Below are positions 5,904-23,518 of a stretch of DNA of 34,407 bases, in pieces. Origin of the DNA: Candidatus Fermentibacterota bacterium (GTDB lineage: Bacteria > JAFGKV01). Made by a program: the position numbers and the translations under genes. The notes under the pieces are model-generated. The model worked only from the letters and a program-made list of their open reading frames with translations, ran no database searches and was not told where the DNA came from. The stretch is taken from contig JAUXFG010000029.1 of NCBI GenBank assembly GCA_030620115.1, positions 1 through 34,407 on the forward strand, in the 5' to 3' direction. Numbering within the stretch: the stretch's first letter is position 1; each line of letters starts with the position of its first letter.

Positions 5904-7442
5904 GTGAACAGAATCGTTATTGTACGTAAAGACTGCTATTACGACTCGGTGCTTCTTTTGCGGATCTCCCGGGAGGTTGAGGCCTCGTCAGGCGTTGTTG
6001 ACGCAGTAGTAGCCATGGCCACTCCGCAAAACAAGGAACTACTCAAAGATGCAGGCTATTCGGCTCCTTTGTTGGATAGTGCCGGACCAAATGATCTGGT
6101 GATTGCAGTACAGGCCGAGAATGTCCCACAGGCAAAGATAGAGCAGATGGTTGCCAATTTGCTGACTGGAGGGAGGGCCGGCGAAGAGCTTGAACACCGG
6201 CCGGCAACACTGGCGGCAGCAGTTTGTGAAGAGCCTGACGCGAATCTCGTCCTTATTTCGGTTCCAGGAGAGTACGCGGCGCGTGAGGCTCGTCTGGCGC
6301 TTGCTCAGGGACTTCATGTGATGATTTTCTCTGACAATGTTTCCTTGGAAAACGAAGTGGCCCTGAAGGAGGAAGCTGTTCGGAAGGGGTTGCTTTGCAT
6401 GGGACCTGACTGCGGGACCGCAATCATCAACGGCAAACCATTGGCTTTTGCCAATGTGATTCGACCCGGATCCATTGGGGTCGTAGGCGCCAGCGGGACC
6501 GGGATTCAGGAGGTGACGTGCTGTATTCACCGCCTCGGTGGAGGCATCACCCAAGCCATCGGAACCGGAGGTCGTGATCTGTCGGATGAGGTCGGTGGCA
6601 AGATGACGCTCATGGGCATAACTGCCCTGGCCGAGGACCCGGAGACCGAAGTAATAGCCGTTGTTTCCAAGCCGCCCGCCTCGCGGGTTGCGGAGCAAGT
6701 CGTTCTCGCTCTACAGCACACCGGCAAGCAATGCGTTGTTCACTTCGTGGGTGAGCCTCCCCGAAAGGAGAAAAACGAAGGCGGCGTTGTCTTCGCAAGC
6801 TCGCTGGCTGGAACAGCAGAGGAAGCCTGCCGATTGGCCGGTGTTCCGATTCCCACTAATCTTGGGTTGGAGCATGATAGCGCTCTTGTGGAAGAACTTG
6901 CGGAACTTGTTTCACCTGGGGCCAAGCTCCTGGGTCTTTTCTGCGGCGGCACAACCGCCCATGAGGCTCTTTCGCTATTCACGCGGCATGGCTTTGAGAT
7001 TTTGTCGAATCTCTATGAGGATGGCCCCCTCCGTGTGGACGACACGCGGCATGAAAGCGCCCATGTCATCCTGGACCTTGGAGCGGATGAGTTCACCGCC
7101 GGGCGTCCCCATCCTATGATAGATCCTGTGCTCCGAAATGAGCGTCTCGAGATAGAGATGAGTGATCCTTGGGTGGGTCTGCTTCTGTTTGATCTAATCC
7201 TCGGATACGGGTCGCACGACGATCCTGCCTCGGTTTTAGCCCAGGGTGTCCATCGAGCGCGAGAACTGGCTCGAGAACACGAAAGGAAGATTGTCGCGGT
7301 GGCGTCGATAACCGGTACTCCCGCCGATCCTCAGGGCTACGACAGGCAGCGGCGTCGTTTGGAAGATGCGGGAGTTGTCGTGATGCCGGATAACCTCAGG
7401 GCCGCGGCCCTTGTTGCTGCGATGCTTAGGAGGGTTGTCTGA
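5904..7442 (+). CDS. allF: FdrA/AllF-like subunit of oxamate carbamoyltransferase
   Basis: This 512-residue protein has a succinyl-CoA-synthetase-like fold. Motifs shared with E. coli FdrA (AllF) include MGPDCGTAI (166-174), GVVGASGTGIQEV (192-204) and IGTGGRDLSDEVGG (219-232). AllF, AllG and AllH together form the enzyme that phosphorolyses oxalurate to oxamate and carbamoyl phosphate in E. coli allantoin catabolism. The start is GTG 5904, six bases after AAGGAG (5892-5897), which lies at the very end of a repeat cassette. The stop overlaps the next gene (TGATG), so AllF and AllG are coupled. The C-terminal half (GLFCGGTTAHEAL, AHVILDLGADEFTAGRPHPM) is full length. The role is by homology; older annotations call it acyl-CoA synthetase FdrA. 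Confidence 0.88.
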   Translation: MNRIVIVRKDCYYDSVLLLRISREVEASSGVVDAVVAMATPQNKELLKDAGYSAPLLDSAGPNDLVIAVQAENVPQAKIEQMVANLLTGGRAGEELEHRPATLAAAVCEEPDANLVLISVPGEYAAREARLALAQGLHVMIFSDNVSLENEVALKEEAVRKGLLCMGPDCGTAIINGKPLAFANVIRPGSIGVVGASGTGIQEVTCCIHRLGGGITQAIGTGGRDLSDEVGGKMTLMGITALAEDPETEVIAVVSKPPASRVAEQVVLALQHTGKQCVVHFVGEPPRKEKNEGGVVFASSLAGTAEEACRLAGVPIPTNLGLEHDSALVEELAELVSPGAKLLGLFCGGTTAHEALSLFTRHGFEILSNLYEDGPLRVDDTRHESAHVILDLGADEFTAGRPHPMIDPVLRNERLEIEMSDPWVGLLLFDLILGYGSHDDPASVLAQGVHRARELAREHERKIVAVASITGTPADPQGYDRQRRRLEDAGVVVMPDNLRAAALVAAMLRRVV

Positions 7443-8854
7443 TGAAACTGTTCGAGCAGGATCTTGTTGTGGTGAATATGGGTCTTTCTTCATTCGGGGA
7501 AAATCTCCGACTCGAGGGGGCGCGAGTTGTGCAGATGGACTGGAAACCCGCAGCGTCCGGCAATCGGGAACTGATGGATCTCCTCGATCGGCTCGTGGGG
7601 GGCGACGGGGAACTGCTGCCCAAAATCCGGGACGCCAATACAAAGGCCGTGCGTCGTCTTCTTGAGGCTAAGCCGGTCATTGTAGGCATAGGCACGGCAG
7701 GAGAGGTTATCCCCGGAATGCACAAGGGGCTTGTGCTTCATTCGGGCCCACCTGTGGAATGGGCGCGGATGTGTGGTCCTATGCGAGGAGCGGTGGTTGG
7801 GGGATTAATCCTCGAAGGATTGGCCAAGAATTCCGAAGAAGCTGCGGAACTTGCCTCAGGAGGCGATGTGGAGTTCGAGCCATGTCATCATCATGGGACT
7901 GTGGGACCCATGGCAGGAATCGTCACCGCGTCCATGCCCGTATGGATTCTCGAGAACACAGCATTCGGCAACAGGGCCTTTTGTACACTGAATGAGGGCT
8001 TGGGCAAGGTGTTGCGCTATGGCGCCTTTTCGGATGAGGTGATCGCTCGCCTTAAGTGGATGAAGGAGGTTCTCGCGCCGATGCTGTCAGAGGCATTGAA
8101 TCTGCACGGGCCTTTGGATGTTCGCAGTTTGATTGCGCAAGCACTTCAAATGGGTGACGAAGTGCATAACCGTAACCGTGCGGCTACTTCACTTCTCATA
8201 CGTACTCTCGCTCCCTTTTTGGTTCGATCGAAGGCCGGCGGCGACAAGGTGGCAGAAGTTCTGGAATTCATGAATGGGAACGACCATTTCTTCCTCAACA
8301 TCAGTATGCCGGCCTGCAAGTGCGCCTTGGACCCGGCGTCAGGGATTCCAGGCAGTTCTCTGGTGAGCACAATGTCTCGCAATGGAACAGAGTTCGGTAT
8401 ACGTGTTTCGGGTTTGGGAGAGAGATGGTTCACTGCGCCTGCACCAATGGTTGATGGGCTCTATTTGCCAGGGTTCTCGGCTCAGGATGCCGCGCCCGAT
8501 ATCGGCGATTCCGTGATTACTGAATCAGCTGGTTTGGGTGGGTTTGCCATGGCCGCCGCCCCGGCAATCGTTCAGTTCGTGGGTGGCAGCGCTTCCCAGG
8601 CCCTGACCTTCACAAGGCAAATGTATGATATCACATTGGCTGAGCATGCCATATATAGGATTCCAGGGCTGGATTTCCGCGGAACGCCGACAGGAATCGA
8701 TCTGCTCAAGATCGTGCAAACCGGCATTGTCCCTGTGGTGAATACCGGAATCGCCCATCGTGATCCGGGCGTTGGTATGGTGGGGGCCGGTCTCGTGAAG
8801 CCGCCCATGAGTTGCTTCGAAGATGCCCTGAAAGCCTTTGTGGAGGCGATGTAG
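7442..8854 (+). CDS. allG: YlbE/AllG-like (DUF1116) subunit of oxamate carbamoyltransferase
   Basis: This 470-residue DUF1116 protein is homologous to E. coli YlbE (AllG). The family hallmark CHHHGTVGPMAGI is at 148-160, followed by ITASMPV-like TASMPVWILEN and later KCALDPASGIPGSS and MSRNGTEFGIRVSG. It starts at ATG 7442, one base inside the allF stop. AGGAGG at 7428-7433 lies within the end of allF. Together these indicate equimolar production with AllF. It would form the carbamoyltransferase with the AllF and AllH products. Unlike the E. coli arrangement, the third subunit is not adjacent: a cyclase-family gene and two repeats intervene. Family assignment is firm. Substrate is inferred from the E. 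coli enzyme, and a related ureide is possible. Confidence 0.88.
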   Translation: MKLFEQDLVVVNMGLSSFGENLRLEGARVVQMDWKPAASGNRELMDLLDRLVGGDGELLPKIRDANTKAVRRLLEAKPVIVGIGTAGEVIPGMHKGLVLHSGPPVEWARMCGPMRGAVVGGLILEGLAKNSEEAAELASGGDVEFEPCHHHGTVGPMAGIVTASMPVWILENTAFGNRAFCTLNEGLGKVLRYGAFSDEVIARLKWMKEVLAPMLSEALNLHGPLDVRSLIAQALQMGDEVHNRNRAATSLLIRTLAPFLVRSKAGGDKVAEVLEFMNGNDHFFLNISMPACKCALDPASGIPGSSLVSTMSRNGTEFGIRVSGLGERWFTAPAPMVDGLYLPGFSAQDAAPDIGDSVITESAGLGGFAMAAAPAIVQFVGGSASQALTFTRQMYDITLAEHAIYRIPGLDFRGTPTGIDLLKIVQTGIVPVVNTGIAHRDPGVGMVGAGLVKPPMSCFEDALKAFVEAM

Positions 8855-8883
8855 AAGCTATCAGCGATCAGCCAGAATGAAGA

Positions 8884-8912
8884 GTTGTAGGAGCGCCGTA
8901 AGGCGCGACAAC
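8884..8912. repeat. REP-like hairpin GTTGT...ACAAC
   Basis: An inner stem GCGCC-GTAA-GGCGC is extended by GTTGT/ACAAC across a small internal bulge. It resembles the GTAGGAGCG...CGCGAC REP-type hairpins common in proteobacteria and others. It lies 30 bases after the allG stop, where it could attenuate or protect mRNA. It has no T-run, so it is not a classical intrinsic terminator. Confidence 0.55.
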
Positions 8913-8994
8913 AGCATCACTGAGCAACTCGGGAATCACAATTCGAAAAGCGGCATAGCTGATGACCTTTTCACTTCACAGCATGGAGGAAAAA

Positions 8995-9858
8995 ATGAAA
9001 CTGATTGATCTGACTGTTCCCTTGGGTATCGGTACTCCGGCATGGCCTACCTATGAACCGCTCCAGATGAAGTATTTCAAACGGTTGGCTCCCAATGGAG
9101 CTAATGGCCAACTGCTGACACATTCCAATCACGTGGGCACTCATCTTGACGGGGAGATCCATTTTTACACCCCTGGTAAAGACATCGCGTCTTTGCAGCT
9201 GGACTATCTGGTGAGCGAGGGAGTCGTAGTAGACCTTTCCGATGCGGTGGGGGATTATGAGATCTACACTTCGGCAATGGTGGAAGAACGTGTTGAGGTA
9301 AAGGAGGGCGATATCCTCATTATTCACACCGGCTATCATCACTATGGATGGGATCAGCCCGCGGCAGACGAGATTGCTTACATGGTAAAACATCCGGGCC
9401 CGGATCGGGAGTTCGCGGAATGGGCCAAGGCCAAGAAGCTGAAGTGGATCGGTGTTGACTGTGGTAGCGCGGACCATCCGATGAATACCATAATCAGAGG
9501 TTGGATGCCACGGCAAGCCAGAGAAGCGGATGTTCTTTTCCAGGAGAAATACGGGAAACCATTGGCCGAGGTTTTTGACGATTCCAAGTATCAGCTTATG
9601 CATCTGGAGATGTTCAATCACGGCATCATTCACGCAGAATGCCTGGGCGGCGACATCGATCTGTTGCTGAACCAGCGTTGCACCATCGGCTGTTTCCCAT
9701 GGCGTCTGGTGGATGGCGAAAGCTGTATTGCCAGGATCGTGGCTTTCGTGGATGAGAAACGCTATGACGAACTCATGAAGACCAAATCGAGTTGCACCCT
9801 CACGAAGTTCGGAGACATTGCGGGATCGAAACACCCGGAACTTCATGGCAAGAAGTAG
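8995..9858 (+). CDS. Cyclase-family (kynurenine formamidase-like) metal-dependent hydrolase
   Basis: This 287-residue protein belongs to the cyclase family, whose members include kynurenine formamidase and isatin hydrolase and hydrolyse amide bonds in small or cyclic compounds. The metal motif is HVGTHLDGEIH (46-56), where the usual HxGTHxDxPxH proline is Glu. IIHTGYH, WIGVDCGSADHP and LEMFNHGIIHAECLGG follow as expected. ATG 8995 is chosen because GGAGG at 8985-8989 precedes it by five bases; the frame stays open to 8962. It sits between allG and allH, so I infer that it opens a cyclic ureide or imide to make the carbamoyltransferase substrate. The true substrate is unknown. The gene is followed after three bases by a large repeat. 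Confidence 0.87.
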   Translation: MKLIDLTVPLGIGTPAWPTYEPLQMKYFKRLAPNGANGQLLTHSNHVGTHLDGEIHFYTPGKDIASLQLDYLVSEGVVVDLSDAVGDYEIYTSAMVEERVEVKEGDILIIHTGYHHYGWDQPAADEIAYMVKHPGPDREFAEWAKAKKLKWIGVDCGSADHPMNTIIRGWMPRQAREADVLFQEKYGKPLAEVFDDSKYQLMHLEMFNHGIIHAECLGGDIDLLLNQRCTIGCFPWRLVDGESCIARIVAFVDEKRYDELMKTKSSCTLTKFGDIAGSKHPELHGKK

Positions 9859-9861
9859 GGG

Positions 9862-10110
9862 ATGTTTCAGGACAGGTCGGGAAGTGGTTTACGCTTTGGG
9901 GACCTCCGCGCAAAGAGCAAGGCTGTGCGGGGTGTCATCGCGAGCAGCGCGGCGATCTCAATGAGCGATGAGATTGCTTCGTCGGCCTTCGGCCTCCTCG
10001 CAATGACTGAATGTAAGGACACTGTTCTTGGATCTCTCTACAGGGTCCTGCATTCCTAAATATTGCACTATAGCGCAAGACCGAGACCGCAAGACGAGGA
10101 GATGAAGTAT
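9862..10110 (+). repeat. Long composite repeat, left copy of an inverted pair (partner 14437-14680)
   Basis: Read on the + strand, this matches the reverse complement of 14437-14680 almost end to end. Landmarks: TTTCAGGAC, GGGAAGTGGTTTAC, GGTGTCATCGCGAGC, GCGCGGCGATCTCAATG, GATGAGATTGCTTCGTCG, CTCCTCGCAATGACTGA, CACTGTTC, GATCTCTCTAC, CCGAGACCG. The middle part is the widely dispersed TCATTGCGAGGAG...GAAGCAATCTC bacterial repeat. The copy begins three bases after the cyclase stop and ends about 20 bases before the proposed allH start. No ORF or transposase is visible. Confidence 0.85.
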
Positions 10111-10130
10111 CCCGGAAATAGGAGCAAACC

Positions 10131-11015
10131 CTGAGAGCGGGTCGACTGGCTGCGACTGCACTGGCCGACGCCTCTGAAGGCGTAATCGTCTCAGTTTTTT
10201 CTTCTGCTGCCAACATGTTGCTTGATACCGGTCGGATAGTCGCTCTGCTCCCTTCGTGGAGGCCGCTGCATCCGTGGGCCGTCTCTGGAACTGGGCTTTC
10301 TGAGAATGTGCGCAACGGAATGCCGGTACGGATCAAGGGCGACATTCTTTCGTTTGGGGACATTGAGTTGCAGTTGGGCAAGGTTCGAATCCAAGACCTG
10401 AACCTGACCAAGAAGCTTTCTGTTGTTCCGGATGAGACGATACGACAGCTGCGCGTCGTAGCATCTGTGTCAGAGCAAGAGGATCCGCTGAGTCAGGTCG
10501 CATTGTCTTGCCTTGAACAGTGCAGGGAAACAGGGGATGTGACCCTGATTGCTCAGGCGCTCGGAGCAGGTGGGGGGCTTACACCGTCTGGTGATGATAT
10601 CTTGGTAGGTCTGTTGGCCGCTCTTGATTTGATGTCCGAGGAGAGTTGTGCGTGCCGGAATGATCAGCTGCAAACGAAACCTGGAACTATTGAATCGTCG
10701 GAGTGCCGGGAAGCCGTGATCACGGAGGGAAAGCGGTCCCCACCTTCTCGATTGCGGAAGATTCTTGTTTCGGCTTTGCCTGAGTCGTTGCACGAGCACA
10801 CCACTCTGCTCTCTGCCCAAATGATAGAAGCGGCAATGGTTGGCTGCTACCCGGAGCCTATCGTGACGCTGGGAGGATCGCTGGCTCAGTCTGATGCGTC
10901 ATGGGCGAAAGTCGAGCGAGCTGCCAAGATGGTGACCAAAATGGGGCATGGATCTGGAAGTGCCATGCTCCGCGGTTTCACCGTGGGCCTTGAGTTAGGG
11001 CTCGCGCAGGAATAA
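10131..11015 (+). CDS. allH: YlbF/AllH-like (DUF2877) subunit of oxamate carbamoyltransferase, apparent CTG start
   Basis: This is a DUF2877 protein homologous to E. coli YlbF (AllH). Family motifs present are GLTPSGDDILVGLLAAL (from residue 149) and MGHGSGSAMLRGFTVGLEL near the C terminus. The first ATG (10215) would cut off LRAGRLAAT...SVFSSAAN, which looks like the normal N-terminal strand and helix of the family. The frame is open back to 10122 but holds no ATG, GTG or TTG before 10215. CTG 10131 has GGAG (10121-10124) six bases upstream and gives 294 residues. The start is therefore proposed as CTG; a lost canonical start after repeat insertion is the alternative. It completes the AllFGH set, though displaced from allFG by the cyclase gene and a repeat. 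Confidence 0.8.
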   Translation: MRAGRLAATALADASEGVIVSVFSSAANMLLDTGRIVALLPSWRPLHPWAVSGTGLSENVRNGMPVRIKGDILSFGDIELQLGKVRIQDLNLTKKLSVVPDETIRQLRVVASVSEQEDPLSQVALSCLEQCRETGDVTLIAQALGAGGGLTPSGDDILVGLLAALDLMSEESCACRNDQLQTKPGTIESSECREAVITEGKRSPPSRLRKILVSALPESLHEHTTLLSAQMIEAAMVGCYPEPIVTLGGSLAQSDASWAKVERAAKMVTKMGHGSGSAMLRGFTVGLELGLAQE

Positions 11016-11215: not shown

Positions 11216-11223
11216 GCATGAAC

Positions 11224-14200
11224 ATGACGGATATTGCCAGAGAGAATGTGGATGCACTGACCGGGCTCTACAACCGGAGGTTTCTCAGCAGGCGGGTAGA
11301 AGAATACCTAAAGGGAGCCCGAAGTGACGACTTGCCTTTGTCGATCATATTGATCGATCTGGATCATTTCAAGGCCGTCAACGATACCTATGGACACGCC
11401 AGAGGTGATTCCGTGCTGATCCAGTTCGCCTCCTTTCTCAGGGGACGTATCCGTTGTGATGATTCTGTCTTCCGATATGGTGGGGATGAGTTCGTGTGCA
11501 TTCTTCCGAATACAGGCTATGAGCAGGCGATCAGGATCTCACAACGCTTTCTCGAGGAGAGCCGGGCAAGGGAGTTCGCAAGGAACAGGATAACGATGAG
11601 TATCGGCATAGCATCCTTTCCAGAGGACGGACCTGACTGGATGTCCATTTTTGATGTTGCCGATCAACATCTCTATAGTGCAAAAAAGCATGGGAGGGAT
11701 CGGATTGGAATCCGGGGCCGCGGCGAGAGGAGCCTCATTATTCCGACCCCCGAAATAGCCGGCCGATCGTTGGAATGCTTGATGATAGAGGATTCTATGA
11801 GGAGGACATATTCCGGCAGAGGGGGAGTCATCTGTATCAGCGGAGAGACAGGTGTCGGCAAGACGAGGCTGTTCCGGGAGATGGCGGTTTCCTGCTCGTC
11901 TCAGAAAGGCAGGTTTGTATGCAGCAACCTCTCAGCCGCGACCCATTCAATACCATACTATCCCTTCAGGGAGATGATACGCACACTGATCAGCGTGAAG
12001 AGGGGATCATCTCTTGATCAACTGTCCCGGGTCTATCAGATAGAGCTCGCCAAGATTGCCCCCGAACTGCTCAAGGAGCCTGCGGAGGAGGACAGAGATG
12101 TTCTCATGGTTGACAGGTTCAGGCTTTTCGAAGGCGTGAGGCGTTTTCTTGAACTTCAGATCGGGGAAGGACCGCTCTGCATTTGCATAGATAATGTTCA
12201 CTGGGCCGACGAGAATTCGCTTGAGCTCTTTCATTACCTGCTTGGAACGCTGCGAGAAAGCCCTGTTCTATTCATGCTTGCGTATCGGATCGAGGAAGCC
12301 CAGGACAGTGCCTTCCAGGAGATGCTACGCCTTGCGGCATATGAGAATGCACTTGAGAAAATCGACCTTGAGCCTCTAGAAGCATCTGATACAGCCCACA
12401 TGATTTCATTGATCATTGATGCGTGCCCTCCTGCGAATCTCTCGGAGTACATCTACAGGAAGACGGGCGGCAATCCCTTCTTTGTAGAAGAACTAATGAA
12501 GACCCTGTTGAGTGACGGCGCCCTCAGCTGGAATGGTAGCTCCTGGGAATTCGAGGAAGAGGGCAGCGTGACGATTCCTTTCTCAATAGAAGGTGTTGTT
12601 GAGAGGAAACTGGGAATCCTCGGCACTGAAGCCCGTTCTCTCCTCGAGTACGCTGCGGTCATCGGCAGGGAGGTTGACTTTGCTTTTCTCCATGAGGTGT
12701 CGATGGTGAACGAGGGGCATCTCTTCGATCTTCTTGATGAGATAGTTGAGATGAGGCTTTTTTCGGTGGTCGGCGGGGAGAAGTACTGCTTCTCGGAAGA
12801 CATCATCAGAGAGATAATCTACGACGTCATGAATGAGTCCAGGTTAAGGCATCATCACCGCAGAGTGGGCGAGAAGCTGCTCCTGCTCAACATAGAACGT
12901 ATCGACAAGGTCGTAGAAGAGCTATCTTCTCACTTCTACCAGGGCGGCGACTGGGATAGGGCGGTCGAGTACAGCATAATCGCGGGAGACAGGGCAAAAG
13001 CTGCTTATGCCAACCGGGATGCGGTTGGGTTCTATACAAGGGCGATAGAGTGCATAGAGCTCTCTGGGGAGCCCGGCAGTGAGTCAAAGCGTACAGAATG
13101 CCTCAGAAACCGGGCTCTGGTCTATAACCTGATTGGCGAGAACGAGAGGGCGATAGCGGATCTTGAAGAGGCGATAAGTCATTCGGAAAGAGCAGGGAGG
13201 ATCGAGGACAAAGCAGGCTCCCTGATTGCGATCAGTAGGGTCTATGATGATGTCTCGCGGTATGACAGGGCGGAGGAAGCCGCAGAAGAGGCGCTGAGGA
13301 TCTACAGGGAAGAGGGCGATAAGGGAGGAGAAGCGCAGAGTCTCCTGAAATTGGCAGTTGCAAATCGTTTGCGTCGTGACTATCAACCGGCAATCGAGTT
13401 CTTCCGGCTTGCACTGGAAGTAACCCGTGAGTTCCCTGAACATGAAGTGGAGATGAAAGCCCTCAATGGAATGGGGACATCATATGCAGCGCTTGGCGAG
13501 TACGATAAGGCTTTGGATCTCTATAATGAGGCTTTGATTCTGAGCGAACAGAGAGGCGAAAAGACAGTACAGATAGCCGCTTTGGTTAATATTGGCAATA
13601 TCAGTTACTACAATGGGGATTATCCAGGAGCCGTTGAGTTATATCACAAAGCCATGGTTATAATTAAGGACATTGGAAGTCGCAGAACCGAGGCTATAAC
13701 AAGCAATAATCTCGGCTGCATCTATATACAGAAAGGAGACTACTCAAGGGCTATTGAGTACTTGCATAATTCACTCGTATTATATAGGGAGACAGACGAC
13801 AGAGCAAATGAAGCCGGATGTTATCTCAATCTTGGTGAAATGCATGTCAGACAAGGCAATATCAAGAAAGGACACGAGTCGTTCAGGAACTCATTCAGAA
13901 TATTCGAGGGTTCGCCCAACCGCGATGGGCTTGCGAAGTGCCATACACGGGAAGGGAATGCCTTTCTTGAGGAGAATGATATTCATAACGCCAAGATCCA
14001 CTTCGACAAGGCTGAGGAGATTGCAGAGGAGCTTGGGTCAAGGCCTCTTCTCGAAACTGTACTAGTATCAATTGTCGCCCTCCATTTGGAAGAGGGTGAC
14101 CTGGGGAGCGCAAGGGGGCGTCTCGACGAACTCATGTCCCTCTTGGACGAATACGATTCAAAAGAGATCCGGGCGAAATCATTGTGTTTTGCAGGTCGGA

Positions 14201-14433
14201 TATCATCTCACGAGGGCGACCGGGACACAGCCAATTCATTCTTCCAACGATCGATTGCTCTTTGTGAAGAACTTGATGATGAATTCATGTTGGCGATAGC
14301 CATCTACTATCAGGGGCTCATGTTGATGAAAGCAGGCGATGAAACCTCTGGGAAGGAATGCATCGAACGGGCATTGAGGATATTCACTCAGCTTGGTGCT
14401 ATGAGTTGGGTAGGAAGACTTGGTGGGGAATGA
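11224..14433 (+). CDS. Diguanylate cyclase (GGDEF) fused to AAA/STAND-type ATPase and TPR repeats
   Basis: This protein of about 1069 residues has three parts. The N-terminal GGDEF domain (about 1-165) has DALTGLYNRR, IDLDHFKAVND and the active motif RYGGDEF (84-90), with a product-inhibition site RCDD five residues before it, so it should make cyclic-di-GMP. Next is an AAA_16-like ATPase (about 180-560) with Walker A GETGVGKT (207-214) and Walker B-like LCICIDNVHWAD (318-329). The rest is a TPR array (about 600-1065) with many GEYDKALDLYNEAL-type units. No signal peptide or TM is seen, so it is cytoplasmic. ATG 11224 is seven bases after GAGG; ATG 11218 is only one base after it. Arg codons AGG/AGA appear more frequent than in the preceding cluster, hinting at a different history. 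The regulated target is unknown. Confidence 0.9.
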   Translation: MTDIARENVDALTGLYNRRFLSRRVEEYLKGARSDDLPLSIILIDLDHFKAVNDTYGHARGDSVLIQFASFLRGRIRCDDSVFRYGGDEFVCILPNTGYEQAIRISQRFLEESRAREFARNRITMSIGIASFPEDGPDWMSIFDVADQHLYSAKKHGRDRIGIRGRGERSLIIPTPEIAGRSLECLMIEDSMRRTYSGRGGVICISGETGVGKTRLFREMAVSCSSQKGRFVCSNLSAATHSIPYYPFREMIRTLISVKRGSSLDQLSRVYQIELAKIAPELLKEPAEEDRDVLMVDRFRLFEGVRRFLELQIGEGPLCICIDNVHWADENSLELFHYLLGTLRESPVLFMLAYRIEEAQDSAFQEMLRLAAYENALEKIDLEPLEASDTAHMISLIIDACPPANLSEYIYRKTGGNPFFVEELMKTLLSDGALSWNGSSWEFEEEGSVTIPFSIEGVVERKLGILGTEARSLLEYAAVIGREVDFAFLHEVSMVNEGHLFDLLDEIVEMRLFSVVGGEKYCFSEDIIREIIYDVMNESRLRHHHRRVGEKLLLLNIERIDKVVEELSSHFYQGGDWDRAVEYSIIAGDRAKAAYANRDAVGFYTRAIECIELSGEPGSESKRTECLRNRALVYNLIGENERAIADLEEAISHSERAGRIEDKAGSLIAISRVYDDVSRYDRAEEAAEEALRIYREEGDKGGEAQSLLKLAVANRLRRDYQPAIEFFRLALEVTREFPEHEVEMKALNGMGTSYAALGEYDKALDLYNEALILSEQRGEKTVQIAALVNIGNISYYNGDYPGAVELYHKAMVIIKDIGSRRTEAITSNNLGCIYIQKGDYSRAIEYLHNSLVLYRETDDRANEAGCYLNLGEMHVRQGNIKKGHESFRNSFRIFEGSPNRDGLAKCHTREGNAFLEENDIHNAKIHFDKAEEIAEELGSRPLLETVLVSIVALHLEEGDLGSARGRLDELMSLLDEYDSKEIRAKSLCFAGRISSHEGDRDTANSFFQRSIALCEELDDEFMLAIAIYYQGLMLMKAGDETSGKECIERALRIFTQLGAMSWVGRLGGE

Positions 14434-15057: not shown

Positions 15058-15768
15058 ATGGAGAGACAGAACGTGCGCATGCTTCTTCCCATCGTGCTAT
15101 TTCTGATCCAAGTGCTCCCTGTTGTCTCGCAAGAGGACCAACCACTCGGGCGTACCGCTCTGATCATGCGCAGATGGGCCAATGTTCGCAGCAGGCCCAC
15201 TACTTCGAGCACCGTGATTCGGAGGGTTTACGAGGGAGAAGAATTTCCCGTCCTTGAGGAGCGAGACGAGTGGGTGAAGATTCAACTGGACGAGACTTCC
15301 GTGGCATGGGTCTTTGGGGAGCTGATTCAGCTGATAGAGGAGGAGAAAGAGCAGGTAGAGCGATCAGCTATTGCTCTGTGGGTGTATGTCCCTGTGATGC
15401 TCCTGATAGCCCTCGGAGGGACCGGATCGGTGTACTTCTGGCTCGCGAGAAATCAGCGTATCCTCGATTATTCGGGCAGATTGGATCGCCTGACCAGTGC
15501 CGGCTACATCGAGAATGTTTCGCGGGACGATGTGGTACGGCTTACCCGCGCATTCGGCATGAATGACAGAGCCGCACGCCACGTAGCTCGGCAGACGTAT
15601 CTCGATAGGTACCGTGTCTCCAGTAGTCATCGGAAATTGACCGAAAAGGAAAAGGCGAGTTTTCGAAAGCTTCAACTAGTCCTGCAGCTAGGCGATGCGG
15701 AGGTCATGAGACTCATGGCGAAGGTCTACAAGGGCAAAGGAAAGCGGGAAAAGCGGGGGGCGCAGTGA
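15058..15768 (+). CDS. Secreted/anchored SH3b-domain membrane protein (first gene of a five-gene operon)
   Basis: This is a 236-residue protein of unknown role. Residues 1-25 are a signal peptide (MLLPIVLFLIQVLPVVSQ). Residues about 33-90 form a bacterial SH3 domain with the typical ANVRSRPTTSSTVIRRV, EGEEFPVLEERDEWVKIQL and AWVFGELI pattern, placed outside the cytoplasmic membrane, where SH3b domains often bind peptidoglycan or peptides. A TM helix (about 105-130) leads to a cytoplasmic tail of about 105 residues, ending in a very basic stretch (KVYKGKGKREKRG). Start 15058 keeps the full signal sequence; ATG 15079 is an alternative. The stop overlaps the next start as GTGA. Domain calls are good; the function is unknown. 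Confidence 0.8.
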   Translation: MERQNVRMLLPIVLFLIQVLPVVSQEDQPLGRTALIMRRWANVRSRPTTSSTVIRRVYEGEEFPVLEERDEWVKIQLDETSVAWVFGELIQLIEEEKEQVERSAIALWVYVPVMLLIALGGTGSVYFWLARNQRILDYSGRLDRLTSAGYIENVSRDDVVRLTRAFGMNDRAARHVARQTYLDRYRVSSSHRKLTEKEKASFRKLQLVLQLGDAEVMRLMAKVYKGKGKREKRGAQ

Positions 15769-16973
15769 ACCTGTTGAGACTGCTCTGCGTTCTGGCCCTC
15801 GTCGGTTCGAGCCCGGGTTTTGCTCAAGAGGATATCCGGGCTGATTCGGTCGGCGCCGATTTCTTTGCTGGCATTCAAGACAGCCTCCTCATCCAGGAGC
15901 CCGATACACTCTCCTCGCTTCTTGATTCACTGCCGCCTGCGAGGGTCGATAGCATCGTAGCGTTGGATACCCCCACTGACGAAGGTGGATTCATCGATCT
16001 GTACTGGGCTCTATCCAGGGATGATGTGCTCGGATCGGGCAGAGTCACGGGGTACCAGGTCTTCCGCGCCACAGAGCCGTCAGGTCCGTTCCAGGGGATC
16101 GCTACACTTGGTCCCGGAACCGACCGCTTCGTGGATAGGCATGCACTCGCAGGTACGGATTTCTATTACAAGATCCGCACCAGGGGTTCTGCCGGGGGAT
16201 TCTCGGATTCGCAGACAACAGACGCGATTTGTAGCTCCGGGCAATGGTTCGACAAAGGCAAGGCCTCCATCCTCGGTGCTCTCGTGGTACTGGTGCTCTT
16301 CTTTCTCTTCACACGAACGCTTCCATTACTCGACGAAGTATGGGTTTACCCTGCGATCCAAAACATCGCCGATGCATTGGCGCGAGCCCACGAAGGCCCC
16401 ACGGTGTATGTGCCGGGCGCGGGGGGATTGGGCAGCATGTCGACCATTGCCTCGCTTACCCTGCTTGACCAGATCGTGCCACTTGTCCAAGATCGGGGCA
16501 GTACCCCCTACGTGTACGTCGCAGATGCCCTCACCTTTGCCGCTTCCCAGCAGCTCCTCGCTAACCAAGAAGCCGTTTTCACTCGATTCATCTGCCCTGA
16601 TCGTTCGGCCTTCAGTATGGCCTACACCGGCGAGGTATCCCGCATCAAACCTCACATGGCTTTTCTTGTGGGCGACATGCGGGACGAGGCCCTTCTCCTT
16701 GCGGAGGCCGACTCCCGTGAAGGCGCCCTCCAAGTCGCCGGATCCGATGACGTCAGCCAGATCCCGTTTCTGATCTCGACCTGTGAGCTGACGCTGATCG
16801 GCGAAGTCCTCTTTCTGGCAGGTCCCCAGCTTTCTGCAGGTGGCTTCCGTGCGGCAACATTGCTCCATGACCGGCTGAAGAAGCTCATATGGCTCCTCAT
16901 CGTAGTCGGCATCATAGGCGCGAGATTGGGCTGGTCGTGGTACATTGGATTCTTCGGCACGGGGGGAAACTGA
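15765..16973 (+). CDS. Membrane protein with FN3-like ectodomain and a conserved soluble domain, function unknown
   Basis: This 402-residue protein starts at GTG 15765, overlapping the SH3b gene by four bases. Residues 1-20 are a signal peptide (MNLLRLLCVLALVGSSPGFA). Residues about 72-155 look like a fibronectin type III domain (LYWALS, GYQVFRATEPSGPF, DFYYKIRTR). A TM segment follows at about 168-186. The next part, about 187-372, is a soluble alpha/beta-looking domain with VYVPGAGGLGSMSTIASL and IKPHMAFLVGDMRDEALLLAEA, and a C-terminal TM is at about 375-395. The architecture recalls DUF6754-type proteins, but I cannot confirm that. Its neighbours are all membrane proteins and the genes are coupled, so it is probably one subunit of a membrane complex. 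Confidence 0.78.
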   Translation: MNLLRLLCVLALVGSSPGFAQEDIRADSVGADFFAGIQDSLLIQEPDTLSSLLDSLPPARVDSIVALDTPTDEGGFIDLYWALSRDDVLGSGRVTGYQVFRATEPSGPFQGIATLGPGTDRFVDRHALAGTDFYYKIRTRGSAGGFSDSQTTDAICSSGQWFDKGKASILGALVVLVLFFLFTRTLPLLDEVWVYPAIQNIADALARAHEGPTVYVPGAGGLGSMSTIASLTLLDQIVPLVQDRGSTPYVYVADALTFAASQQLLANQEAVFTRFICPDRSAFSMAYTGEVSRIKPHMAFLVGDMRDEALLLAEADSREGALQVAGSDDVSQIPFLISTCELTLIGEVLFLAGPQLSAGGFRAATLLHDRLKKLIWLLIVVGIIGARLGWSWYIGFFGTGGN

Positions 16974-16974
16974 G

Positions 16975-17598
16975 ATGGATCGGCGGATTCGAATCGTCGT
17001 CTTGGTCCTGGGAATTTTGGCAGTGGTTCAATTCTTCGTGCCCCATGCCTCTGGGCGATGGGTTCACCAGAAGCTCCTCGACTGGCTGGTCATTCTTGAG
17101 TCAGGAGCCCTGGTGGCAGGCATCGTCGCGTTGGCGAGGCATGAGGTATTGCAGTTTGGTGCCTCAGGCGGCAGAGCAAGGATCTATCCACTGCTCACGC
17201 TTGTGGGCCTGGGAGCCATGATCTTCTCGGGGATTCTTGGGCCAATTAACGAGAGGTCATTGTTCGGTTCATTGTATGCATGGCTGTTGCAGCCTATCCA
17301 GGCAACAATGCTCAGTCTGTTGGTTTTCTACATGGCATCGGCAGCATTCCGGAGTTTCCGGCTGAGCTCCGCGCCCGCGACTATTCTCCTCGCTGCTGCG
17401 CTGATAGTGCTCCTGGGCCGTGTGCCGTTGGGAGAGAAGATTGTGCCCAACATCTCTCTGTTTTCGACGTGGATTATTCGTGTACCCAACGTCGGTGCTA
17501 CTCGGGGACTATGGATAGGCATAGGGCTTGCGGGGAGCGCAACGGCGTTGCGTGTCATTCTTGGCATTCAGGGGCCGGCAAGCTGGAAGGGGCGCTAA
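16975..17598 (+). CDS. Polytopic membrane protein, function unknown
   Basis: This is a 207-residue hydrophobic protein with about five to six TM helices (for example IVVLVLGILAVVQFFV, AGIVALARHEV, YPLLTLVGLGAMIFSGILG, LLQPIQATMLSLLVFYMA, APATILLAAALIVLLG, GLWIGIGLAGSATALRVIL). ATG 16975 lies one base after the previous stop with GGGGG eight bases upstream; the open frame extends back to 16945, but that would be inside the previous gene. No known family motif is visible. Position within the coupled operon suggests a membrane-embedded subunit that pairs with 18443-19084. Confidence 0.75.
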   Translation: MDRRIRIVVLVLGILAVVQFFVPHASGRWVHQKLLDWLVILESGALVAGIVALARHEVLQFGASGGRARIYPLLTLVGLGAMIFSGILGPINERSLFGSLYAWLLQPIQATMLSLLVFYMASAAFRSFRLSSAPATILLAAALIVLLGRVPLGEKIVPNISLFSTWIIRVPNVGATRGLWIGIGLAGSATALRVILGIQGPASWKGR

Positions 17599-17602
17599 GT
17601 CA

Positions 17603-18442
17603 ATGGACTATCCTGCTGTTGTTGCCTCAATAACCAAGATTGACCGGAGGTTCATCTATCTGCTTGTTGGACTGGCAGTGGCAATCCCGCTTCTTCTGGC
17701 TCATCAGGCCGAAGTCGAACCCACTGAGGAAAGCATGGCCTTTCATGCGGGGGTGAGCACGCTCGGAGAAGGTGATGTGGTTTTATTGAGTACTGACTAT
17801 CACGCCGGCAGTGCCTCTGAACTCAATCCCATGGTGAGGGCTTTTGCGACAGATGTGTTCAGGAGGGGGGCGCGACTCGTTGTCCTTTCTCTGAATGCCC
17901 AAGGAACGGGGTTGGTGGAGGCCGAGATCAATAAGATCGCTGCTGAGTACGATCGCACATACGGTGTTGATTGGGTCTTCTTGGGCTTCCGTCCCTCGAC
18001 GCCCGCGGTTATCCTCGCGTTGAGCGCCTCGCCGCATAGTCTCTTCCCCCAGGATTTCCGGGGGAATGAGCTCGCCGAGCTCCCGCTCACCGCGCATCTC
18101 AATGGGTATCGTGATTTCAGTCTTATCTGTGTCATTTCATCCGGGGCCACGGCGCAAGACTGGGTCATCTATGGCCATGGGCGCTTTCAGTGCCCCATGG
18201 TGGCTGGGCTATCGGGCGGGATTGGTCCGGCATTCCAGAGCTTTGTGGACACGCATCAGATTGCCGGTGTGCTTGTGGGGCTTCGAGGCGCAGCCGAATA
18301 TGAACAGATGTTGGAGTTGCCTGGTGAGGCGCTCCGCGCTCTTTTTGCACAGTCCCTGACACACATGCTTTTCGTCGCGCTGATCGTGATCGGCAACATA
18401 TCGCTTCTGGCAACAAGGTGGATAGAGAATGCGATGCGATAG
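17603..18442 (+). CDS. Doubly anchored protein with soluble alpha/beta domain, function unknown
   Basis: This 279-residue protein has an N-terminal TM helix (FIYLLVGLAVAIPLLLAH, about 18-35) and a C-terminal TM helix (MLFVALIVIGNISLLAT, about 255-272). Between them is a soluble domain of about 220 residues with Rossmann-like features: DVVLLSTDYHAGSASELNPM, RGARLVVLSLNAQGTGLVE, VDWVFLGFRPSTPAVI, VAGLSGGIGPAFQSF. The domain is probably extracytoplasmic. It starts four bases after the preceding stop; an earlier in-frame start at 17528 would overlap that gene heavily and is not favoured. I do not recognise the family. Its soluble domain could contact that of the 15765-16973 protein; this is inference from operon context. 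Confidence 0.75.
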   Translation: MDYPAVVASITKIDRRFIYLLVGLAVAIPLLLAHQAEVEPTEESMAFHAGVSTLGEGDVVLLSTDYHAGSASELNPMVRAFATDVFRRGARLVVLSLNAQGTGLVEAEINKIAAEYDRTYGVDWVFLGFRPSTPAVILALSASPHSLFPQDFRGNELAELPLTAHLNGYRDFSLICVISSGATAQDWVIYGHGRFQCPMVAGLSGGIGPAFQSFVDTHQIAGVLVGLRGAAEYEQMLELPGEALRALFAQSLTHMLFVALIVIGNISLLATRWIENAMR

Positions 18443-19084
18443 ATGGAGTTTCGCCTCTTGAGTACCGATCCCTCGATTCTGATTCCCGCGGTGGTGACCT
18501 TGGCGGTCTTCTCGATTCTTTACAGAGAGAATCCGGTGTTTCGGGCGGTGGAACGCCTCGGCGTCGGTCTTGCCGCGGGGTATGCATTCATCCTCATCGT
18601 GCGGACCGGCCTTATTCCCCGATTGAGCAAGGCGCTTGGGGCTCCATTTGATCCGTCCTCCGTTCTTCTGCTTCTCCCTCTGGCAGCCGGGATAGGTTTG
18701 GTGATGTCAGCCGTGGGGCACAGGACTCAGCTGGCACGGTTCGCCGTAGCGGGTGCTGCTGCAATCGGAGCGGGGCTTGCACTCCCCCTCCTTATGCAGG
18801 CGCTCGTGCTTTCTCAGATGAAGGCGAGCATGGTGCCGATGGGGCTCTCCTCCGTGGTTGGATTCAACGCGCTGGTCATCGCCATCTGCGTGCTCACCAC
18901 CATGGCCTACTTTTCTTTCACGCGAGAACCTACAGGGATACGGGCTCTCTTTGCCATTTCAGGGCTGTATACCCTGATGATCGCATTCGGCGCGACATTC
19001 GCTTCCCTGGCAATGAGCAGGATTACGCTTCTCATCGGCAGGTTCCTCTTCCTTTTGCGCGACGTTTTCCATCTCGTGCAGTGA
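18443..19084 (+). CDS. Polytopic membrane protein, last gene of the five-gene operon
   Basis: This is a 213-residue protein with about six TM helices (SILIPAVVTLAVFSILY, LGVGLAAGYAFILIV, SSVLLLLPLAAGIGLVM, RFAVAGAAAIGAGLALPLL, VVGFNALVIAICVLTTMAY, LFAISGLYTLMIAFGATF). Its ATG follows the previous stop (TAG 18440-18442) with no gap. A conserved-looking loop, GLIPRLSKALGAPFDPSS, lies after the second helix. No family motif is recognised. With 16975-17598 it would supply the membrane core of the proposed complex. The operon ends here; a repeat-filled gap of more than 400 bases follows. Confidence 0.75.
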   Translation: MEFRLLSTDPSILIPAVVTLAVFSILYRENPVFRAVERLGVGLAAGYAFILIVRTGLIPRLSKALGAPFDPSSVLLLLPLAAGIGLVMSAVGHRTQLARFAVAGAAAIGAGLALPLLMQALVLSQMKASMVPMGLSSVVGFNALVIAICVLTTMAYFSFTREPTGIRALFAISGLYTLMIAFGATFASLAMSRITLLIGRFLFLLRDVFHLVQ

Positions 19085-19501: not shown

Positions 19502-22500
19502 ATGGGAGATAGGGGTATTACTCTCGCGGCCTTGGTTCTGGTTGCAGCCCTGGGGATTCTCCGGCTCTCGGCCTCGATTGCTTCATATGCGCTTCCACTG
19601 CTCTGGCTGTTCATCCTCTTTCTCGCAGGGAGCACCCGCAGGCGAACCTTCTTGGCGAGCGCCGCAGTATTGGGATTTCTAGTCATCAACATCCATTTCT
19701 CTTCTTTTGGGTCTCAGGCTGCCCATGTTCGGATGGTGGAGCAGGCTCGTGCCAAAATGAGCGATCTCTTTGATGATGTATTGAAAAAGCATGAGCTGAA
19801 TAATCTTGCATCTCGATCTCGGAATGATCTCTTCGCCCTGACCGATCGGCTGATCGCCGATGCACCCCCAGGGGCAGGAATGCTCATCCGTGCTGCAGAT
19901 GGCACGCCGTTGGCGTGGGGAGGGGAGGTCACCGGAAAGGAGATGTTGCCCCAGGGCACATGGCTGGAGCTGGGGGAACCGACTTCTTTTCTTCGCGGGA
20001 GAAAGGGATTTGGGGCTGCGGGACTAGAGGTATCTCTCCCGCTTCCGATATGGACCGCACGTGACACCATGGTTCGGCTGAACAAGGAGTTCTCCGGCCT
20101 CGAGCGAGCAGAGCAGAGCACGTTGGTGCCGGAAGAACTGCTGATTCTCTTGATCACGGGTTTCTTGTTACTCCTGTTTGCCGAGCTCCATGGCGCCGGT
20201 CGGCGCCGCACAGCGGCCATCTTGGTTCTGGCCTGGCGCGGCGTATTGCACTTCATGGCGGGCGAAGGGGCTCTCGTCCAACCCGAGAAGTTCGCCAGTG
20301 GGATCCCGCTCGCCCAAACAGCCGGTGATATTCTCCTCTCGAGTATTGCGGTCTTTTGCGTGGTACTTCTCATCCCGTGCCAGATCCGGCGGCCGGGGCG
20401 CTGGAGATACCCTCTTCTGATATGGTACGCCGGGGCTGCTGCAGGGCTGGGTCTGGGGATCGCCGCAGTCCCGGGCTGGGTGCGCCAGCACATGTCAGTA
20501 TCCACAATGACAATCCATCGTCTCGTGCTGCATCCATCGATTCTTGCGCTGGCCTTGGCGAGCCTCTTGCTCTGCATGGCCGCAGGCAGGTTGGTTGCCG
20601 TTCTTCCTCGCCCTCGACGTGGGGAGCTTTTTGCCATCATCTGCCTCATGATCATGGGAATCGTGGTCATGGGCTGGCAATGGGGCGTGGCCATTCTCCT
20701 GATAGTCATATCTTTACTCTGGTCTGCTCCCGCTCTGTGGCCTGTTGCCCGCTGGACCGGAGTGGCCCTGGCCGCATCGGCATTCATGATTCCTGCATGG
20801 AACCACCAATTCTCTGTCCTCAGGAAGGATGTGGTCGAGGATCTCGCTGAACAGGTTGCTTCCCCCGGTGTCGCATGGTTCAGACTCCTGGCCGAGGAGG
20901 TTTTTCGAGAGGGAACAGGAGCACCGAGTATCCATGACATGTGGGCCAATGGACCTCTGGCTCGTCTCCCGGTCAGTGGTGAGCTGCTCTGGTTGGACGA
21001 ACAGTGTTGCGTAGAGGATCGCCTGGCGTTTGGTCTCACAGGGCACGAGATACCGGAGCTGCCGATGCTCCCGCCGAAGGAAAAATTCCTCACGTGGGTG
21101 GACGCATTTGACGAACTCGATCCGCCAATGTCGAAAGTCACTTCGGTGGCGCGAAGGGATGGCGGAACCGGATTTGCTCTCGTATCATTGGTTGCGGACA
21201 TGGCTTCGCCGATCCTTCTCGGAGGCGCGGGGATGCTTGCCGATGGATCCCCATGGCCCCTTTCGGCACACTTGACGGATCGAGGGCTCCTCTCAGGACT
21301 CGATCCAGGGGAACATGCTGTTGGTTGGCACGCGGATCGGGCGACCGGAAGCCACTATCTAGGGTTTCAGAGAGAGTTTGCAGACGGCCCCCATCTTCTC
21401 ACACTTACGGTGGAACCGGAGCCAGTTGTCGAGCAGGTGGTTGCCTATATGGCATGGATTGGGATGATCTGCCTGATTGCTCAATTGACGTTGGCGGCTC
21501 GGAATATGTGGATGGCCCCATCAGTAGGCAGTCTTTTTTTCAAGTTTCGCGACAGGCTATTGCCCTTTATGCTCGCCACTGCGACACCCCCTGTGCTGGT
21601 CATTCTCATCCTCGGTCCATGGCTCGAGGACAAGGTACTCCAGGGGCAGGAAACAGCGGAAGCACAAATGAGGCTGGATGAAACGGCGGCGCGCTTCCGG
21701 AATCTGGCGGTGGAGCATGCCCGGGCAGTCGCGAGACGCCCCTGGGCAGCTCCCATTGCGGATCGATGGCGCCTTGGTGAACGCATAGCCCAGATTGACC
21801 ACACGGGGAATGTGGTAGCCGGCTCTCTGGACACGGTATCAGCAGTCTCACCCGCGCTTCTTACTGCGGTCCAGCGGCGGCAGCGACCTCTTGTGGTGAT
21901 CCCTCGCGGCGTGAAGCGAATGATCGCAGTCGTCCCGGGCGAAAACGGTGCTGTGGTGGTGGACCGCCCCCTGCACATGATGGCCGGAGCATTGGCTGCG
22001 GGGGCCACTGATCTCTCCATCGGCGTGTGGCAGGAGGGTATGCTGGCCGCGGCGGCCCTTTCCCCTCCCTGTGATTGTGTGCCATTTCTGCTGCCGGATG
22101 CTCCCGTGCGGCTGTCTGTATCGCGGTTCGCCCATGGTTCCGTGAGGGCTGCCGACTGGAATTTCAAGGTCGTGTCTGATGATGTTCGGGATGCGGCGGT
22201 TATCATTGGAGTCCGCAGCGAACAGAGGCCTCGCGGACGATCCCTTTGGGTCACCGTTGAAGTATGGGGCCTTGGGATTCTGTTCCCTGTTTTGGCGCTT
22301 ATCGTGTTTCTCTCATCGGCAGCGGCGCGACTTGTGACGCGTCCGGTTTCGATCCTGACCGATCTGGCGCAACGAGTTGAAGGGGGTACTGTCGATACGA
22401 AGTGGCCCGCACCGTCAGGCGAACTCGGGCATCTGTCCAAGGCTCTGGAGCGCATGACGGAACGATTGCTATTGAGCCGGATGGACATCGAGAGGCGAAG

Positions 22501-23518
22501 GGCGTATTTGCAGACTGTGCTGGAGCAGATTACCTCGTCGGTGATCGTGGTTGGACCGGATGGAATGGTGGAACTCACCAACCGATCCGCCGAATCCTTG
22601 CTGCATTGGCTTCTTCCGCATGGGGTCGCGGGTGATCTATCGGTCATCGATGGCCCGCTTGGCGATGTGGTGGGCAGAGTCCTTGCCACAGGTAGGAGCG
22701 CCGAGCAATCCATTGCACTGAAGGACGATGCGGTGACAAGGCAGTGGCATGTCGGCGTGGCCGCGCTTGGAGTGCAGGGCCACGAGGCAGCCTTAGGGGT
22801 CGTGATTGTAGCCGACGAAACTACGGAGTTGGCTGAGCGTGAACGACTCCTGGCGTGGGCGGAGTTTGCCAGAGAGATGGCCCATGAGATCAAGAATCCC
22901 CTGACCCCGATGAAGCTGGCGGCGCAGCATCTGCGGAAGGCGCATGCCTCGTCTTCTCCTCGCTTTGACGCAGTTCTCCGGCAAGCGACCGATATGATCG
23001 AACGCCAGGCCACACGCATCGAGGGGATCGTGAAGGAATTTTCGATGTTCACCAAGGCGACAGGGAAGGAGTTTGTGGTGTTGGATCTCTGTACAGTGGT
23101 GTCGGAATGTCTTGGTGACTACCGCTATGCCATGACGGAATCCGTTGAGTTGTGTCCGGAATTTGAGGAACCAGAGATCAGGGTGAGGGGCGACCGGGAG
23201 GCGTTGCGGAAAGTGGTGGCAAATCTGTTGGACAATGCCCTTCGAGCGGTGGGGAACTCAGGCAGTGTGAAGATTCTCGTGGCATTGTCTGGAAACACAG
23301 CCAGGCTGGAATGTATCGATACCGGGCCAGGCATACCGAAGGAGATGCGGGAAAAGGTGTTTGAACCCGGAGTCACGGAGCGGCCGGGCGGCATGGGGCT
23401 TGGGCTCACGATTTGCCGTTCTCTCGTCGCCGCCCACGGGGGAAGGATTCGTATTGAGAGTGAAGATGAAGGCGGTACTCGTGTGATCGTCGAACTGCCG
23501 TGTGCCCCAGAAGAGTGA
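19502..23518 (+). CDS. Giant NtrY-like sensor histidine kinase
   Basis: This 1338-residue membrane sensor kinase is nearly twice the usual NtrY length. Two TM helices open the protein. Then come a probable extracytoplasmic section (about 60-210), a block of hydrophobic helices (about 215-430), a second section (about 435-650), two more TM helices, a third section (about 705-910) and a last TM. The cytoplasmic part has HAMP (about 935-990), PAS (about 1000-1110), HisKA with His1128 in HEIKNPLTPMKLA, N-box VVANLLDNALRAVG, G1 DTGPGIP and G2 GGMGLGLTI. It should autophosphorylate and signal to a response regulator, but none is encoded nearby. ATG 19502 is four bases after AGGAG. The priA gene follows after 52 bases, so they may be cotranscribed. 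Confidence 0.9.
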   Translation: MGDRGITLAALVLVAALGILRLSASIASYALPLLWLFILFLAGSTRRRTFLASAAVLGFLVINIHFSSFGSQAAHVRMVEQARAKMSDLFDDVLKKHELNNLASRSRNDLFALTDRLIADAPPGAGMLIRAADGTPLAWGGEVTGKEMLPQGTWLELGEPTSFLRGRKGFGAAGLEVSLPLPIWTARDTMVRLNKEFSGLERAEQSTLVPEELLILLITGFLLLLFAELHGAGRRRTAAILVLAWRGVLHFMAGEGALVQPEKFASGIPLAQTAGDILLSSIAVFCVVLLIPCQIRRPGRWRYPLLIWYAGAAAGLGLGIAAVPGWVRQHMSVSTMTIHRLVLHPSILALALASLLLCMAAGRLVAVLPRPRRGELFAIICLMIMGIVVMGWQWGVAILLIVISLLWSAPALWPVARWTGVALAASAFMIPAWNHQFSVLRKDVVEDLAEQVASPGVAWFRLLAEEVFREGTGAPSIHDMWANGPLARLPVSGELLWLDEQCCVEDRLAFGLTGHEIPELPMLPPKEKFLTWVDAFDELDPPMSKVTSVARRDGGTGFALVSLVADMASPILLGGAGMLADGSPWPLSAHLTDRGLLSGLDPGEHAVGWHADRATGSHYLGFQREFADGPHLLTLTVEPEPVVEQVVAYMAWIGMICLIAQLTLAARNMWMAPSVGSLFFKFRDRLLPFMLATATPPVLVILILGPWLEDKVLQGQETAEAQMRLDETAARFRNLAVEHARAVARRPWAAPIADRWRLGERIAQIDHTGNVVAGSLDTVSAVSPALLTAVQRRQRPLVVIPRGVKRMIAVVPGENGAVVVDRPLHMMAGALAAGATDLSIGVWQEGMLAAAALSPPCDCVPFLLPDAPVRLSVSRFAHGSVRAADWNFKVVSDDVRDAAVIIGVRSEQRPRGRSLWVTVEVWGLGILFPVLALIVFLSSAAARLVTRPVSILTDLAQRVEGGTVDTKWPAPSGELGHLSKALERMTERLLLSRMDIERRRAYLQTVLEQITSSVIVVGPDGMVELTNRSAESLLHWLLPHGVAGDLSVIDGPLGDVVGRVLATGRSAEQSIALKDDAVTRQWHVGVAALGVQGHEAALGVVIVADETTELAERERLLAWAEFAREMAHEIKNPLTPMKLAAQHLRKAHASSSPRFDAVLRQATDMIERQATRIEGIVKEFSMFTKATGKEFVVLDLCTVVSECLGDYRYAMTESVELCPEFEEPEIRVRGDREALRKVVANLLDNALRAVGNSGSVKILVALSGNTARLECIDTGPGIPKEMREKVFEPGVTERPGGMGLGLTICRSLVAAHGGRIRIESEDEGGTRVIVELPCAPEE

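Follow-up and report, generated by a model that had tools for sequence, protein, structure and literature searches.

We analysed a 34,407-nucleotide stretch of DNA from a Candidatus Fermentibacterota bacterium (assembly GCA_030620115.1, contig JAUXFG010000029.1, positions 1 to 34,407; hereafter the window), which carries five adjacent genes, g1 to g5, on the + strand at 15058-19084. The main finding is that g2-g3-g4-g5 form a membrane cassette that is conserved in order across many phyla and co-occurs with a predicted cytosolic ATPase module, whose main components we call B and A; the window carries its most divergent copy. The best explanation of the data as a whole is a widespread four-subunit inner-membrane complex that would share B/A, with the window copy rewired to a sensor, and we regard this explanation as about evenly balanced between right and wrong.

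The initial annotation had treated the five genes as one unit. Among all loci fetched, g3-g4-g5 come after 189 of 209 g2 genes, on the same strand and in this order, which is conservation far beyond chance; several of the 20 exceptions lie on contigs that are short or truncated. The window genes g2 to g5 are likewise contiguous, on one strand and in the right order. Independent occurrence of these genes was not borne out when their linkage was checked across phyla, but g1 was found only in the window genome (G000) and in its two nearest relatives in the sample (G001 and G002), all of the same family (Fermentibacteria). The conserved unit is therefore four genes, not five. With profiles built from the window genes, the cassette was detected at many loci in more than a dozen phyla. 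A longest-ORF (open reading frame) rule was used to call locus genes, which leaves small genes and precise start positions approximate; the order and adjacency counts do not depend on the gene caller alone but are based on profile matches. When one genome per GTDB species was scanned, at least 579 confirmed relatives of g3 were obtained, the best 80 being from Fermentibacteria, Eisenbacteria, Poribacteria, WOR-3, Zixibacteria, Edwardsbacteria, Coatesbacteria, Latescibacterota, Cloacimonadota, Binatia, and Nitrospira, among others. Of the 290 sampled genomes, 78 contain the DUF6754 domain of g2, and the 14 well-known reference genomes used as controls all lack it; g4 was also found in 78 of the 290, and 76 genomes are common to both. 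The sample, mostly one genome per genus, was drawn around the window's genome (two from the same family, the rest from other families of the domain Bacteria), and the prevalence of 27%, about a quarter, is an estimate for these 290 genomes, not for all bacteria.

The cassette is often multiplied. Tandem arrays of two to three cassettes are common, as at the Zixibacteria loci L093, L095, L127, and L147, and the window genome has seven DUF6754 genes, among which the window copy scores lowest by far (109 bits versus 366-413 bits), together with one split cassette (a lone g2 on contig C207 and g3-g4-g5 on C122). Two variations on the cassette were noted in passing. Divergent g3-g4-g5 genes lacking a recognisable DUF6754 occur at L277:5685-8721 (G233) and in G095, and the g3 frame at L277 is 502 residues long, perhaps with a replacement domain. 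A homolog of AmmeMemoRadiSam system protein B follows g5 at most Nitrospira loci (L096, L103, L112, L134, and others) and was seen almost only in that group.

In the window the five genes are consecutive and spaced by -4, +1, +4, and 0 bases, in agreement with the tight coupling noticed at the outset; the fixed stoichiometry that had been read from it cannot be shown by gene spacing. The lineage-specific accessory gene g1 (15058..15768) is predicted to encode a signal peptide, an extracytoplasmic SH3b domain (about 15178-15327; PF08239, SH3_3, E 7e-14), a transmembrane (TM) segment (about 15367-15423, from hydropathy), and a basic cytosolic tail of 114 residues (15424-15765); it falls below the cut-off of the SH3-and-anchor family TIGR04211 (21 versus 65 bits). 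The first core gene, g2 (15765..16973, GTG start), encodes a signal peptide, an FN3 domain (about 15942-16244), a TM segment, DUF6754, and a C-terminal TM segment. It passes PF20539 (DUF6754) over residues 159-394 (E 3.2e-31, 108.8 bits versus a cut-off of 27). N-terminal to this domain, the FN3 part is modelled by AlphaFold2 (AF2) with a predicted local distance difference test score (pLDDT) above 90 and matches FN3 structures in the PDB, which bears out the FN3-like domain first proposed from the letters alone, as the PF08239 match does for SH3b. Core genes g3 (16975..17598) and g5 (18443..19084), the last of the cassette, encode polytopic membrane proteins as had been proposed, judged from hydropathy and family conservation. 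Between them, g4 (17603..18442) encodes a TM segment, a Rossmann-like alpha/beta domain (about 17708-18337), and a second TM segment, an assignment drawn from the AF2 model, the family alignment, and hydropathy. In the ORF list g3 and g4 begin further upstream in the same frame (at 16945 and 17528, respectively), but the ATGs at 16975 (g3) and 17603 (g4) were preferred because they fit the family alignments. The hydropathy scan gave two hydrophobic segments each in g1 and g4, several each in g3 and g5, and for g2 the signal peptide and flanking helices.

The initial annotation had also proposed two soluble alpha/beta domains tethered at both ends. Both are present, one in g2 and one in g4, but they differ in side: the positive-inside pattern places DUF6754 (an alpha/beta domain of moderate confidence in the AF2 model) probably in the cytosol and the g4 domain outside. 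The N-terminus of g4, cytosolic by hydropathy and positive-inside reasoning, has conserved Arg residues. The g4 model is of high quality (pLDDT 94, predicted TM-score 0.88); a fold search against the PDB returned generic Rossmann-like matches and no close solved relative (1kjn, TMt 0.61; 2iz7, TMt 0.54), and a PDB sequence search with the g4 profile gave nothing reliable. Glycosyltransferase folds matched g4 at low TM-score and were not taken as homology. The similar strand-helix pattern of DUF6754 and the g4 domain raised the possibility that the two are homologous, which a profile-profile probability of 1.2% left unsupported. For g2, the PDB fold search found FN3 matches only, plus weak composite matches. 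No Pfam or NCBIfam family lies above cut-off for g3, g4, or g5, in the window or among canonical members, and no known complex matches the set. As had been suggested, the genes look as though they encode an undescribed inner-membrane complex of several subunits that carries binding domains outside the cytoplasm. The length of g2 varies among cassettes: some members have 258-314 residues and no room for FN3, others up to 1079. FN3, like the lineage-restricted g1, is thus an add-on to a constant membrane core with variable outside domains.

Next, we examined the genes upstream of g2, where neighbour clustering gave four recurrent families in the order L-C-B-A. B is a MutL/GlmL-type ASKHA protein (PF13941, E 1e-125, 420 bits) that lies below the NCBIfam cut-offs for true GlmL (NF040745, 226.6 versus 475 bits) and for the GlmL subfamily (TIGR01319, 159.5 versus 204.05 bits). 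Each ASKHA phosphate motif is kept in 56 of 57 B proteins and a GSGG motif in 53 of 57; the query B is mostly 57-98% identical to the B proteins of other genomes. A, 375 residues long, has a weak biotin/lipoyl-like match at its N-terminus and a C-terminal end that is KOW-like by eye, the matches to SPT5 and L24 being non-significant; a PDB sequence search with the A profile returned nothing reliable. C and L are small proteins, and one L has a weak bacterial PH match. A was found in 73 of the 290 genomes, every one of them DUF6754-positive, and all 212 genomes without DUF6754 lack it (Fisher test, 3e-63, a value inflated by shared ancestry, although many families are represented and a single clade does not account for the pattern). 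B (E <1e-100) was found in 71 genomes, 69 of which are DUF6754-positive. A is the immediate upstream neighbour of g2 in 49 of 75 cases, and it is usually single copy whereas DUF6754 is present in one to seven copies per genome. Co-occurrence, copy numbers, and adjacency together support the reading that one cytosolic ATPase module serves several membrane cassettes, presumably by physical contact. No match to a g2 or to A was found in a plasmid collection.

In the window genome itself, contig C105 carries C-B-A and contig C160 a frame in which B and A are fused (L191:7132-10089, 985 residues), a second, diverged ATPase/A pair; fusions of about 950-1050 residues also occur in G001, G002, G083, G117, G242, and G254. 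Glycine-cleavage genes and a lipoate-protein ligase gene were noticed beside C-B-A at L190:5620-13166, L192, L195, L113, L077, and L138. They were set aside as a functional clue because they flank C-B-A in a few phyla and do not flank the cassette. The seven loci of the genome, the GlmL-like module, and the atypical character of the window copy were all beyond the sight of the initial annotation.

On the evidence of its residues, the window cassette is a divergent variant and the most divergent copy. Its DUF6754 keeps 47% of 85 near-invariant columns (53% lost), whereas the others keep a median of 95% and a minimum of 69%, and by this residue count it is not canonical. The window g3, g4, and g5 keep 78, 84, and 69% of their conserved columns, respectively. 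Thirty-four near-invariant DUF6754 columns are lost in the window copy and in both of its orthologs, 17 of them with the same replacement; as the loss is common to all three genomes, the change is old and maintained and not random decay. In a tree of 159 complete cassettes the window copy and its two orthologs group together with full support, on a stem of 1.38 substitutions per site whose position is not resolved, and the other window-genome cassettes included in the tree are separate deep paralogs, several of which group with other phyla at high support. Both relatives share the order g1 to g5 together with a gene for a histidine kinase, K, which in the window (19502..23518, + strand) encodes a 1338-residue membrane protein with HAMP, HisKA, and HATPase_c domains (Pfam). 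The K homolog directly follows g5, after a gap of 6 bases in G001 and 0 in G002, which suggests rewiring to signalling. Among the three genomes the identity is 73-75% for the g1 tail, 54-59% for SH3b, 51-52% for FN3, and 45-46% for DUF6754, the cytosolic tail being the best conserved of the pieces compared; separately, the tail (15424-15765) gave a very weak match (E 1.2) to 2ou3, a tellurite-resistance COG3793 (TerB-like) structure, which is a lead only. K is a probable partner of the window variant, which was probably released from B/A and tied to g1 and the kinase. The sensor or assembly complex of the initial annotation thus fares differently by copy: a sensor role is plausible for the window copy, since it and both orthologs have a histidine kinase beside them, but cassettes elsewhere generally do not.

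These observations can be drawn together in one model. The products of g2 to g5 would form one paralogous version of an inner-membrane complex of four subunits that is widespread and uncharacterised. In it g3 and g5 would make up the membrane core, g2 would place FN3 outside and DUF6754 in the cytosol, and the Rossmann-like domain of g4 would lie outside. One cytosolic module of B, A, C, and L would, in most carriers, be common to several ancient paralogous complexes. Nucleotide-driven changes in B, passed on through A, would act on the cytosolic DUF6754, which through g3/g5 would alter the state of the extracytoplasmic g2 and g4 domains; an ATP-driven conformational cycle of B/A could in this way reach g4 and the FN3 and SH3b domains on the far side of the membrane. 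The window copy would be a Fermentibacteria-specific variant with a remodelled DUF6754 face; it has probably lost its coupling to B/A and become linked instead, by way of the conserved g1 tail in the cytosol, to the adjacent histidine kinase, and would act as an envelope sensor. Divergence, domain layout, co-occurrence, and conservation of the cassette are observations; complex formation, the coupling to the ATPase, the rewiring, and the direction of the signal are what we infer from them. As a natural separation-of-function variant, the window copy might be useful for locating the interface used by the normal system.

Several points weigh against this model. A is missing from five DUF6754 genomes, of which two (G219 and G257) may be fragmentary; another genome, G060, is a single contig with neither A nor B whose DUF6754 keeps 80% of the conserved columns. 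B/A is therefore not always needed by a cassette, and its absence alone is no explanation for the divergence of the window copy. The co-occurrence of A/B with the cassette is partly inherited. In the window K sits 417 bases from g5, kinases are common neighbours generally, and most other cassettes have none. The physical interaction and the ATPase activity are predictions from sequence.

Other explanations were weighed against the same data. The one set of B/A beside one to seven cassettes, and the two polytopic subunits, would also be expected if all cassettes were transporters or exporters energised by a shared B/A, with paralogs differing in substrate and FN3 and SH3b docking envelope partners. 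Polysaccharide-export-like proteins beside g2 at several WOR-3 and other loci, and TonB-receptor-like neighbours, both recognised by eye, lean the same way, although such neighbours point to the envelope and not to one substrate. No transporter family in Pfam or NCBIfam matches g3, g4, or g5, few charged residues are conserved within the predicted TM segments, and ASKHA ATPases are not known as transport motors; we consider this explanation unlikely. The variable outside domains on a constant core, the histidine kinase adjacent in the window family, and kinase-like neighbours at some other loci could instead mean that the cassettes are generally envelope sensors, in which FN3, SH3b, and g4 would read an outside signal and DUF6754 would relay it to cytosolic partners. 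This is quite unlikely in our judgement, given that most cassettes have no adjacent regulator and that the constant partner is an ATPase, not a kinase.

The place of B/A and the state of the window copy can each be read in another way. B/A might be an enzyme-maintenance module in its own right, the role ascribed to GlmL, with a phylogenetic distribution that happens to coincide with that of the cassettes; B does belong to the GlmL superfamily, C-B-A does occur beside the glycine-cleavage and lipoate-ligase genes, and the G060 cassette does without A or B. The position of A directly upstream of g2 in two thirds of cases, and the lack of A in any sampled genome without DUF6754, make this distinctly improbable. 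Finally, the long stem of the window clade and the loss of half of the conserved DUF6754 positions are what a decaying, functionless duplicate would leave behind. Against this stand five intact, tightly packed ORFs, the orthologous gene order with the kinase in two more genomes, the shared losses with identical replacements, and the well-conserved g1 tail, by which decay is already largely refuted and in our view highly improbable.

Other features of the window were noticed in passing. The gene immediately before g1 (11218-14433), on its strand and separated from it by 624 bases, encodes a 1071-residue protein with GGDEF, an AAA_16 ATPase domain, and TPR repeats. Further upstream, genes for a CoA-ligase domain protein, AllG and AllH (oxamate carbamoyltransferase subunits), and a putative cyclase at 5904-11015 likely form a purine/oxamate catabolism cluster, which is preceded by a molybdopterin/2Fe-2S dehydrogenase at 2752-5580. 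An Rfam scan of the window found no family, and promoter and terminator signals around the operon were none above shuffled background.

Compared with what is already catalogued, DUF6754 is in Pfam and the superfamily of B is described. For the cassette, the A/B link, or a function, no description was found in Pfam, NCBIfam, PDB sequences and folds, or the open-licence literature, where DUF6754, PF20539, PF13941, and GlmL also returned no paper; subscription papers and preprints were outside this search, and a prior description may exist. If the model holds, an undescribed class of inner-membrane machine would be at hand, in which a GlmL-class ASKHA ATPase and an adaptor, A, drive several paralogous four-subunit complexes and one lineage's copy has been rewired to an SH3b-bearing sensor feeding a histidine kinase; we put this forward tentatively, as somewhat short of an even prospect. 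A system of eight components (L, C, B, A, g2, g3, g4, and g5) in about that quarter of the sampled genomes and in no reference genome would be a sizeable blind spot in envelope biology. An ATPase class so far linked to the maintenance of B12 enzymes would be joined with membrane complexes, and eight gene families gain a shared context that can be tested, with Nitrospira as a named group for follow-up.

With known systems the components share parts and differ in arrangement. The window g2 is a strongly diverged member of PF20539, itself a domain of unknown function for which we found no account of the cassette or of the A/B link. B is homologous to GlmL/MutL (PF13941, NF040745, TIGR01319) and retains the ASKHA phosphate motifs, but it scores below the true-GlmL cut-offs and is paired with A and membrane cassettes, not with a B12 mutase. 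In type IV pili and type II secretion a cytosolic ASKHA protein, PilM or GspL, serves an inner-membrane complex. B differs from these scaffolds in being PF13941, and family scans found no PilM/GspL, PilN/PilO, or Gsp family in B, A, or g2-g5. In ECF transporters and Mce systems several membrane cassettes share one energising module. The sharing logic proposed here is similar, but Pfam and NCBIfam scans found no ABC ATPase or MCE domain in g2-g5, the cassettes have no S-component, and the ATPase that would energise them is of the ASKHA class.

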